DNA of 64,000 nt from positions 682,001-746,000 of the forward strand of contig NZ_PHND01000001.1 of the NCBI RefSeq assembly GCF_002930155.1. The letters run 5' to 3'. Positions 50,866-55,059 of the stretch are shown in pieces. Position 1 is the first letter of the stretch. Each line of letters starts with the position of its first letter. Under the pieces are notes generated by a model, which worked only from the letters and a program-made list of their open reading frames with translations, did no database searches and was not told the DNA's origin. A program made the position numbers and the translations under genes. This stretch comes from Entomoplasma ellychniae. GTDB taxonomy: Bacteria > Bacillota_I > Bacilli_A > Mycoplasmatales > Mycoplasmataceae.

Positions 50866-52146
50866 ATGCAAGATAGAGATATAAAGGTAATATTTGATAA
50901 AAAAAACATAGTTGAAGTTGAAAATATTTCTAAGGTTTATGATAAACACACTTGAGCTTTAAAAAAAATTAATTTAAAAATTGGCCGTGGTGAATGTATA
51001 TCATTACTTGGTTCTAATGGTAGTGGGAAAACTACTCTTTTAAGAATACTTGCTAACAATCTTGAAAAAACTACTGGAACAATAAAATATAATTTTAAAG
51101 AAGAAAATATTTTAAAAAGTATTGGTTTTCAAAAAAGAGAACAGGCTTGACCTGTTGGATTTAAAGTAAAGGATATCAATCAATTATGATATAACATTTA
51201 TCAAGTTGAAGATTTAGAGTGAATTAGTATTTTAAAAGATGTTTTTGGAATCACCGAAATTGAAAATAAACAATTATCAAAATTATCTATTATCAAATTG
51301 CAAATGTATGCAATATTTTTAGCATTAATCAACAAACCTGAATTATTATTAATTGATGATCTTTCATCAGGGATTGATTTCAAATACGAGGAGAAAATAT
51401 CTAGATTTTTAAAAGATTATATTAGCAATGGCAATACTGTTGTTTTAAATTACCCAAGTAACTATTTTTTAGAAAATACAACCACAAGAATTATTTATAT
51501 CAATGATGGAGAAGTTTTTGATGATAAATCAATTAGTGATGTTAGAGGGGAATTTAGAACTATTTCTGACTATACTAAATCTATTTTTAGAGAAGAGATT
51601 ATTAAAGAGAACAGAATTAAAAATAAATCAAAATTATTTATTAACATTAATTCTAAGTTAGAAGAGATTATTAGTGTTATACAAGGGATTATTGATGACT
51701 TAAGTCGTGAAGAACATCCAAATGCTAAAATTAATAACACAATTAATAATTCTTATGCAGCAGTTTTAGATTTAAAAACTAATATTGATAATTTATCAAT
51801 ATCATATATTGACAGTGCTGGAATAAAAATAATATCTACTAAAATTAAAGCAACAATTAAAACCTTTAATAAAGTTTACCTTGTTTCACCATATCAAAAA
51901 TATGAAAAGACTTTTAGAAATATTGAAAAATATTTACAAAAAGAATTAAAAAGAACTTTTAATAATGAAATGGTTATTGTTAAAGGTGATACATTAAGTT
52001 CGACTATTTCTGAAAGTGAAAAAAAACAATTAACTAAACTGAAAGAAAAGTACATAAAAGAAGAACAAAAAACTATTAGAAAAAAAATTTTAAAACAACA
52101 ATTTAAAAAAATTGAGTCATCTACTTTTAAAAAAGGAAATGACTAA
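50866..52146 (+). CDS. ABC-2 type exporter ATPase with long C-terminal extension
   Basis: 426 residues. Residues about 20-225 are an ABC domain: Walker A GSNGSGKTT, Q-loop IGFQKREQAW and Walker B ELLLIDDLSSGID. Several key positions deviate. The LSGGQ signature is replaced by QLSKLSIIKLQMY, the catalytic Glu after Walker B is Asp, and the switch His is not evident (LNYPSNYF). The last 200 residues, from about NRIKNKSKLFIN, are Lys/Glu-rich and helical and unlike standard ABC-2 ATPases, which are about 300 residues. Two permease genes follow within 2 bases each, giving a complete A-B-C exporter. Substrate unknown. Confidence 0.88.
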
Positions 52147-52147
52147 T

Positions 52148-53170
52148 ATGAAATCTAGCAAATTGAGAGTTGTATGTAAATTATTAAAAATCCAAACAAT
52201 CAATTATTTTTCTGACCCTGTTAATATAGTTTTAGGTTTTTTACTATGTAGTGTTACTATGCTTTGTTGAGTAGCTTTTAAGCCAACAGAAGGAGGTATA
52301 TCAACTGATGCGTTTGTTTTAGCTTCAGCAATCGGTATATCAACTATTAGAAATGCCGAATACAATTTGAATTGTACTCTTGTTGAATGAAGAGAAACAA
52401 GATTTATTAGAAATATATTAACAACTCCTATTTCTAAAAAATTATTCTACTTTACAATTCTTCTTTTTAACTGAATTGTTAATATAGTGATAGCTTTAAT
52501 TTTGTTTGCTTTAGCAATGATGTTTAGTTCACAAAGAGTGATATTGGAAAATGTCCAATGAGCACCTTTTTTAGCTGGGTTTTGATTAAATATTATTTTG
52601 TCAAACATTATGGCTTTATGATTGTCTGTTGCCTTTAAACAAAGAGACTATGTATTGATTCTGTCATCAATTTCTTATTATATAGCTATGTACTTATTAG
52701 GATTAGGAATTCCATGATCAACAGTTGGACAATACAAAGTTATATACTATGTTTCATATTTATTCCCGCACAGATATGTATTGAATATTATGCAAGCAGC
52801 TTGAGTTGGAACTTCTGGAAATATGTCACTACCAATACCTTTACATCCAGGTGAAAGTTGAGAAGGTTCTTGATTAGAACAACAAAACTTTGGTTATGGT
52901 GATAATGGGTGATGATTACCATCATTAATATCTGTATTTTTTATAATATTTTTTACGCTATTATTTATGATAGCTATGAACAAAAAATATAGATTTGGAA
53001 CACGTAGGTATGCAAAATATAAAGGCGTAGCTATAAACTTAGAAAATATTGAAATGATTAAAAAGTCATCATCAGTTAATGAATTAAAAGAATTTATAAG
53101 AATATCTGAGATAGATAAAATTCAAAATGACTTTAAAAGTAAAAAAGTTAGAAAGCGACCAGGTGATTAA
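52148..53170 (+). CDS. ABC-2 type exporter permease, first
   Basis: 340-residue membrane protein with about six hydrophobic segments and about twelve UGA Trp codons. N-terminal amphipathic region, then helices at about 25-45, 55-75, 105-130, 150-175, 180-200 and 275-300. A loop rich in Trp, Gly and Pro (PIPLHPGESWEGSW near 235) lies before the last helix, and a 55-residue basic cytoplasmic tail ends it. It resembles the neighbouring second permease in layout (both start with a short basic segment and a CW in the second helix). They probably form a heterodimer. Confidence 0.85.
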
Positions 53171-53171
53171 T

Positions 53172-54116
53172 ATGCAAAAGCTACTAAAAGAATATAAAGT
53201 ATTTAGTATTTTATTTGTGATACAAGCTAAAAACTGACTTGCTAGCCCAATGAACATTTTCTTAGGTGTGTTTATTACTTTTTATACCGTTCTTTGTTGA
53301 TTAACATTTAAAGATGGAGACAACTTTTTAATGATATCTGGAATTTGTGTTGCTATGACCAGAAACTCTATGTATATATATTTAAGAACTTTACTTGATT
53401 GAAAAGGAAAAACCTTTAGAGATAAATTACAAATGACAAATATTAACGGAGTTACTAAACAAGCATCGTTATTAGCATTTAACTTTGTTTCAACATTAAT
53501 TATATGTTTGGTACTAGTTATTATATCTGTTTCTTTTTTTCCAGGTCAAATTACTTGAACAGCTAATTTACCAATGTTAATATTTGGTTTAATTATGTGT
53601 TGAGTTACTTGTTGTGCTACTGCAATAGCTATTTATTTAATAATTCCCAATGCCAAATGATCATTAATGTTTGGATTATTAATTTATTTTTTTTCAACTT
53701 ATTTTTTGGGTTTAGGATTTCCATTTTCAACCATCACAGATCATCAATGACTAAATATACTTATTTATTTTCACCCAATACGCTATTCAATTAATATTGT
53801 ACAAGCTGGATATGTTGGTGCTACTGATTTTAAATATGTTATTGATGGAAATATGATTGTTGACTTTAAGTATGCTGGTCAAACATGAATTCCTATTGTT
53901 GCTGCAATTGGAGTTATAACTATATTAATAGTTATTATTTTATTAAAAATAAATCATGAAAGAGGATATAAGTTTAGATCAAATAATAGTGTAAAAATAA
54001 TGAAATCTAAATCTAAAGCATATATTAAACAAATTAAAGAAACAAATGATATAAACTTATTAAGAGAGATAAGAGAAGACAGAATGGGAGAACTAAAAGA
54101 TGAAATGCTACATTAA
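53172..54116 (+). CDS. ABC-2 type exporter permease, second
   Basis: 314-residue membrane protein with six hydrophobic segments and many UGA Trp codons. It shares the pattern of the preceding permease (LCW in helix 2, a GLGFPFST motif comparable with GLGIPWST, and a following FHPIRYSINIVQA region comparable with FPHRYVLNIMQA). The two therefore look like tandem paralogues. A basic C-terminal tail ends EMLH. It starts 1 base after the first permease's stop and overlaps the next small gene by 17 bases. Confidence 0.86.
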
Positions 54117-54285
54117 AGATTGTGAACAAAGTGCATCTGCTTCATTTGCTGAAAGAGTTTTAGATATGAATTCAACAAATAATCAATGAACAACTGCTGA
54201 ACCAATTTACAAAAAGTTTACTTGATACTTTTGCTCACTGCATATTAACGAAAAACTCGAAGAAATTCAACAACGTCAAAAGTAA
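54100..54285 (+). CDS. Small Cys-rich protein overlapping the exporter operon
   Basis: A 61-residue frame missed by standard-code scans because of two UGA Trp codons. It starts within the second permease gene (ATG AAA TGC, +1 frame, 17-base overlap) and ends at TAA 54283, right before a terminator. A GGGAGAACTAAAAG stretch serves as ribosome site. The sequence starts MKCYIKDCEQSASASF and later has FCSLHINEKLEE. Cys3, Cys8, a C-terminal Cys and His therefore give CX4C and CX2H pairs suited to a small zinc-binding or redox site. I do not recognise the family. The overlap suggests coupled production with the exporter. Confidence 0.72.
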
Positions 54286-54288
54286 TAT

Positions 54289-54315
54289 AATCTATGTAAG
54301 AGCATAGATTTTTTT
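54289..54315 (+). terminator. Terminator of the ABC-2 exporter operon
   Basis: AATCTATG/CATAGATT perfect 8-bp stem, loop TAAGAG, T-run. Confidence 0.8.
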
Positions 54316-54363
54316 ATTATCTGAAAAAGTGATAGTATATAATTACTAATAAAAAAGGAGAAT

Positions 54364-55059
54364 ATGAGAACATGTAACAAACAACATCTTTTAAAAGAAG
54401 AAAAAACATTTGAAAAAAAATTAAAAAGAAGAAATGTTGGGTTAATCATGAATCTTTTTGGATCATCATCATTAATTTTTTTGACAATATTTTTAGTAGT
54501 CATTCTTGGACTGATTTACTTTTGAGCTGGTAAAGAAAAAATTCAAACTGGTTTAAATTCAACTGTTTCTTATTTAGAAAACAAACTAAAGTCTTTTATT
54601 GATGAAATTAAGCAAAGTTTTAATCCTGATGAAATGTATGAAGAATTAATGAAAAAAATTAATACCGAAGGCATAACAATAACAATAGATGGTCAATCTC
54701 GCACACTTGATGCTGATCAAATAAGAGAATTAGTTGAAAAGATTTTACCAAAACAAACTTTTGTTGATATGGTTAATCATTATTTAGAATTTGGTGATAT
54801 TAAACTACCCAGTGAATCAATAAAAAAATTAATTGATAAATTCCCATGAGAATCATTTGATAAATATTTAATCATAGCCTTAGTTACAGCTTCTTCATTA
54901 ACTGTTGTTAACATTTTAAATATTATCTTTGCATCAAGACTTGTAATTGCAAATGGGATTATTGCCAAAGTTGGTTTCATAATTACTTCGATACTTTCTT
55001 TTAACCTAATCAATTGAATTGGTTTATCAGTATTTAGTGTTAATGATAAAAAAGAATAA
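54364..55059 (+). CDS. Membrane protein with amphipathic middle, unknown
   Basis: 231 residues with three UGA Trp codons. A cytoplasmic basic N terminus (about 28 residues, with KKLKRRN) is followed by a hydrophobic helix at about 30-58, containing a Trp. A long charged region at about 60-160 is probably coiled or extracytoplasmic. Two to three hydrophobic segments at about 167-225 lead to a short NDKKE tail. No known motif seen. AAAAAAGGAG site, own terminator. It may relate to the neighbouring exporter, but nothing in sequence proves it. Confidence 0.75.

Follow-up and report, generated by a model that had tools for sequence, protein, structure and literature searches.

CsfB, also named Gin, is a point of comparison for small bacterial zinc-finger proteins. 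It is an anti-sigma factor of Bacillus subtilis that inhibits sigma factors as a dimeric treble clef, with one pair of Cys residues in the knuckle and a second pair in the first helical turn (Cys at 11, 14, 30 and 33; PMC5890618). The protein described here is likewise small and bacterial, with one predicted zinc finger whose ligands would be placed in a knuckle and in the first turn of a helix; CsfB acts by protein contacts (PMC5890618), and by analogy we propose that the small protein may do the same. CsfB is a homodimer with two hairpins and a C-X2-C knuckle (C11/C14; PMC5890618). In the small protein a C-X4-C pair, present in 13/13 aligned rows of its family, is separated by 36 residues, among them a conserved W-T-EP loop, from a closing C-X2-[H/C] pair. 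Gin was absent among the Pfam matches, both for the 61-aa protein alone and for all 13 rows up to an E-value of 5.

Near-minimal mollicutes, e.g. Mesoplasma florum, serve as models in synthetic genomics, a field in which their conserved genes without a name are the part still open. M. florum L1 has no known pathogenic potential (PMC5893858). According to the authors of a transposon map of M. florum, chance misses mostly hit small genes (PMC5893858). The gene reported here is short enough to be overlooked easily and is under purifying selection. It makes a clear prediction for biochemistry, one bound zinc per protein, and poses a clear question for genetics, namely whether it is linked to the exporter. 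An unnamed, probably zinc-binding microprotein family is useful for minimal-cell annotation. A literature search found no description of the 61-aa protein, although one may still exist; the prefix Mfl18 is absent from the main texts of PMC5893858 and PMC7745072, and Mfl19 from that of PMC7745072.

The window analyzed is a stretch of 64,000 nucleotides from Entomoplasma ellychniae (contig NZ_PHND01000001.1, positions 682,001 to 746,000), with a G+C content of 27.4%; the whole genome comprises 900,037 bases on 3 contigs. The gene for a 61-aa zinc-finger-like microprotein with the pattern C3-X4-C8-X36-C45-X2-H48 occupies positions 54100..54285 on the + strand, as identified from its ORF, homologues, alignment and dN/dS. 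It begins with ATG at 54100 and closes with a TAA ending at 54285 under translation table 4, in which W30 and W42 are encoded by TGA, and its first 17 bases (54100..54116, + strand) are shared, in the +1 frame, with the 3' end of the second permease gene. These coordinates were re-derived and match the sequence-only reading, which had also correctly claimed the two UGA Trp codons and a CX4C near the N terminus with a later CX2H. A Shine-Dalgarno-like GGGAG (54086..54090, + strand) is present in the sequence 9 nt before the ATG, within the permease gene. An SD-like match lies 5-10 nt before the start in 14/14 intact copies of the gene, being AGG alone in 5/14 by raw count. Downstream of the gene is a hairpin (arms at 54289-54297 and 54302-54310) followed by a T-run (54289..54315, + strand), and folding of 54270-54330 gave z = -2.85, with 2/200 shuffles folding as well. 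An operon terminator had been proposed at this place, and we grade the hairpin and T-run as a likely one. A simple terminator scan left the hairpin off its list; counted by hand, the stem has two G-C pairs, and the rule demands three.

The small gene is found in 14 of the 60 genomes of the taxonomic family, counting its own genome and one frameshifted copy (genome G011). In that search, 15/60 genomes matched at E <= 0.1, and G049 was dropped for its two partial matches (E 0.08-0.09). A profile search of the order returned 15/320 genomes at E <= 0.01, among which G210 was dropped (23 residues, E 0.005); the same 14 were left, and zero members beyond those of the taxonomic family were accepted among the 320. 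In the class, 395 genomes taken by even draw gave 25 matches at E <= 0.1, of which 9 are family members; the other 16 were partial (E 0.0055-0.092) and were dropped as members. The genus search covered a single genome, that of the window. When named genome contigs were searched with a profile from the family alignment, two loci were recovered, in Mesoplasma grammopterae (L048) and M. seiffertii (L049); none of the viral contigs matched the family alignment and none of the named genome contigs matched the first permease. In G009 the gene is at about 215,683-215,868. There are 14 intact copies across 13 genomes, G054 having a tandem pair (L027 5998-6470), the second copy of which encodes a 64-aa protein identical to that of the single copy in G055 despite a pS of 0.71. 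The gene tree is poorly resolved (1/9 inner branches starred, 7 open, and long branches) and gives no direction for a move relative to the exporter.

No sequence family fits the small protein, and in the libraries searched (Pfam, NCBIfam, PHROGs and PDB sequences) its family appears to be unnamed. The 61-aa protein alone had zero Pfam or NCBIfam matches up to E 1, and two matches to PDB sequences (E 0.3 and 0.55). When all 13 aligned rows were compared with Pfam up to E 5, a scan in which the HMMER filters discard most matches above E 0.1, weak matches were obtained to GFA (5 rows, best E 0.029), DUF6757 (3 rows, 0.0039), TtuA_LIM_N (2 rows, 0.03) and Lin-15B (1 row, 0.089). Two PHROGs were also matched weakly among the 13 rows scanned, by 4 rows at best 0.031 and by 2 rows at best 0.076. 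The family profile reached uS14 among PDB sequences at E 0.41. Its match to two PDB chains of gamma-tubulin complex component 6 (E 4e-6) was rejected as chance, because the E-value sums several poorly scoring repeats that mostly lack the Cys positions.

The family alignment comprises 13 rows, G010 being left out because its protein is identical to that of G009 and G011 because its copy is broken. C-X4-C-X36-C-X2-[H/C] is kept in 13/13 rows; position 48 is H in 8 rows and C in 5. The invariant columns are M1, C3, C8, S13, L21, D22, N28, W30, T32, E34, P35 and C45. Zinc sites tolerate a His/Cys swap at one ligand. The metal binding suggested by the sequence-only reading, which had tied it to conservation of the Cys/His pattern in relatives, is thus well supported as a prediction by the four-ligand pattern in every row, the H/C exchange at the fourth ligand and a treble-clef-like model; the protein is probably zinc-binding. 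Within genus g6, the small gene is under purifying selection, with dN/dS of 0-0.13 in all 15 pairs from 6 intact genomes. Across genera, dN/dS is 0.1-0.97, with most pairs near synonymous saturation, and for the window gene against others it is 0.33-0.62. Net charge ranges from +3.5 to -5.4 across members: those of g6 are basic (pI 8.4-9.0), and acidic members (pI 4.6-5.6, net -3.3 to -5.4) are encoded in G059 and by the four copies in g11.

AlphaFold was run twice, each time with another sequence in first place, and predicted the same elements, namely strands at 14-21 and 37-44 and a helix at 46-60. The best models had pLDDT values of 81.1 and 73.6, with single models down to 61 and 52. In the models, a predicted hairpin is followed by a helix with ligands 45 and 48 at its start, and the N-terminal knuckle would hold the other two ligands, C3 and C8, which are invariant in 13/13 rows. 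A knuckle, then a hairpin, then a helix that begins at the final ligand pair is the succession seen in treble clefs, as in CsfB (PMC5890618), and from it we infer a treble-clef-like fold. In Foldseek searches, neither model had a match in the PDB at E <= 0.001, and the first model likewise had none in a viral fold library, in which a circular-virus replication protein ranked first (E 0.44, probability 0.95, TMq 0.63). As no fold match is significant, the fold call draws on the predicted topology and on the ligand positions from the 13-row alignment. The best matches by VIA-align 2 (VIA) were a ribosomal small-subunit chain for the first model (Z 3.2) and the Lsr2 dimerisation domain for the second (Z 4.7), neither of which was relied on. 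Ribosomal protein eS26, found in eukaryotes and archaea, aligns weakly and not significantly as 7osm_eS26 to the two models (Z 2.5 over 54 residues at 4.8 A, and 2.6 over 58 residues at 6.2 A); other ribosomal rows with the chain range 21-99 are presumably eS26 too. T4 endonuclease VII and the PHD-type fingers of JADE1 and BRD1 matched the first model weakly and without significance (Z 2.4 over 48 residues at 3.4 A, 2.4 over 35 at 1.6 A and 2.0 over 46 at 4.3 A, as a group), and zero sequence relation to them was found in the PDB-sequence and Pfam searches.

Upstream on the + strand, the exporter operon encodes a 426-aa ABC ATPase with a non-canonical signature motif (50866..52146), a first ABC-2-type permease of 340 aa (52148..53170; Pfam ABC2_membrane_3 at E 0.0016, a score of 18 bits where the cut-off is 31.6) and a second permease of 314 aa (53172..54116), which has no Pfam family of its own and forms a pair with the first, to which it bears a distant similarity. 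The ATPase was aligned in 23 genomes, a subset of the 43 exporter genomes. Read by eye, the alignment lacks the LSGGQ signature in 23/23 genomes (LSKLSIxxLQ in the window), and has the Walker A pattern in 21/23, Asp-Glu in Walker B in 16/23 and the switch-position His in only 2/23. By its motifs, this is a conserved non-canonical ABC ATPase.

The position of the small gene relative to the exporter varies. It lies directly 3' of the second permease gene in 10/14 genomes; 1-4 nt separate the two genes in nine of these (G011 included), and in the window they share the 17-nt overlap. In G055 it is 270 nt downstream of the exporter, with an SD-like site of its own; a suspected relic of an exporter-coupled copy between the permease and this gene is not supported, its local score of 106.5 falling short of the value at the 95% point of shuffled sequences (109) and of the reverse-strand score (110.5). 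In the remaining three genomes it lies elsewhere, following the type III pantothenate kinase gene (coaX) in G057 and G058 and a MATE-family gene in G059. The exporter genes of these three genomes stand apart and lack a small gene downstream; in G057 the gene that follows them encodes a class I tRNA synthetase. The first permease matched 49/60 genomes at E <= 0.001, and after six weaker matches were dropped (G013, G015, G018, G022, G023 and G026), 43/60 genomes have the exporter at E <= 1e-25. The small gene is missing from 29 of these 43, and genera g8 and g9 have the exporter with no accepted small-gene match. All 14 genomes with the small gene have the exporter; among the 16 genomes of g1, g6, g11 and g12, these 14 carry the two together, the small gene being frameshifted in one of them, and two (G053 and G056) carry neither. 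Over 60 genomes, this co-occurrence has a one-sided Fisher p of 0.0045, a value that ignores shared ancestry.

The reading that we favor, with confidence poised about midway between acceptance and doubt, is a zinc-stabilised, cytosolic, treble-clef-like adaptor or regulator that is co-expressed with the exporter yet separable from it. The small protein would fold around one zinc through C3, C8, C45 and H48, with an N-terminal knuckle, a beta-hairpin whose long loop is conserved (N28, W30, T32, E34, P35) and then the helix, and would bind a protein partner through the W-T-EP loop and helix, much as CsfB acts through contacts with proteins. Across most of the lineage it would be made from the exporter mRNA, its translation putatively coupled to that of the permease gene, yet the exporter would not depend on it as a subunit. 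That it is instead a subunit or regulator dedicated to the ABC-2 exporter, cytosolic and stabilised by zinc, seated on the ATPase or on the permease tails and perhaps tuning the transporter to zinc, is possible but doubtful. The tight spacing behind the second permease in most genomes speaks for it, and the joint absence from G053 and G056, together with the presence of the exporter wherever the small gene occurs, suggests a functional link. Against it, most exporter genomes do without the small gene, G057-G059 keep it beside coaX or a MATE gene, and G011 retains its exporter genes while its small gene is frameshifted. Loose linkage and dispensability thus argue against an exporter subunit, and the nested occurrence argues for some functional tie. 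The sequence-only interpretation is partly supported, through the predicted metal binding; its exporter-accessory role is a possibility, with the gene at the exporter in most of its genomes, elsewhere in three, and missing from 29 exporter genomes. Nothing among the neighboring ORFs favors the immunity factor that was also suggested. We consider very unlikely the narrower proposal of a lineage-specific, zinc-responsive regulatory subunit that would gate an altered cycle of the conserved mollicute exporter ATPase lacking canonical LSGGQ.

Treble-clef and zinc-ribbon folds are common among ribosomal and nucleic-acid-binding proteins, ribosomal chains (one labelled eS26) make up many of the weak structural matches, and the g6 members are basic, all of which would suit an RNA- or DNA-binding zinc-finger regulator. 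We judge this to be unlikely, as the proteins of G059 and of the four g11 copies are acidic and zero fold matches are significant; the spread of net charge among members is more in keeping with a protein partner than with a nucleic acid. The reading that the frame behind the operon is open by chance is in effect refuted and has a negligible probability. In a first-order Markov control, a frame stayed open for at least 60 codons after ATG in ~2% of trials, a figure that is weak evidence by itself, but homologues in 13 other genomes, fixed ligand spacing and the low dN/dS within g6 show the gene to be real. Reading frame and homologues together confirm 54100-54285 as a protein-coding gene, with translation predicted.

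Several features of the surrounding loci were also recorded. Between the small gene and a formate/nitrite transporter gene, the window encodes a 231-aa protein (54364-55059) with no Pfam family (best E 0.04). Its gene is missing at this place in the loci of 13 relatives; homologues occur elsewhere in 6/7 g6 genomes, broken in G006 and G011, and four more genomes have weak matches. A zinc-binding dehydrogenase gene stands just after the small gene in G007 (L020 6538-7575) and in 0/12 of the other relatives' loci. In G011, the genome with the frameshifted small gene, the formate/nitrite transporter gene is in at least three pieces (L024 4902-5956).
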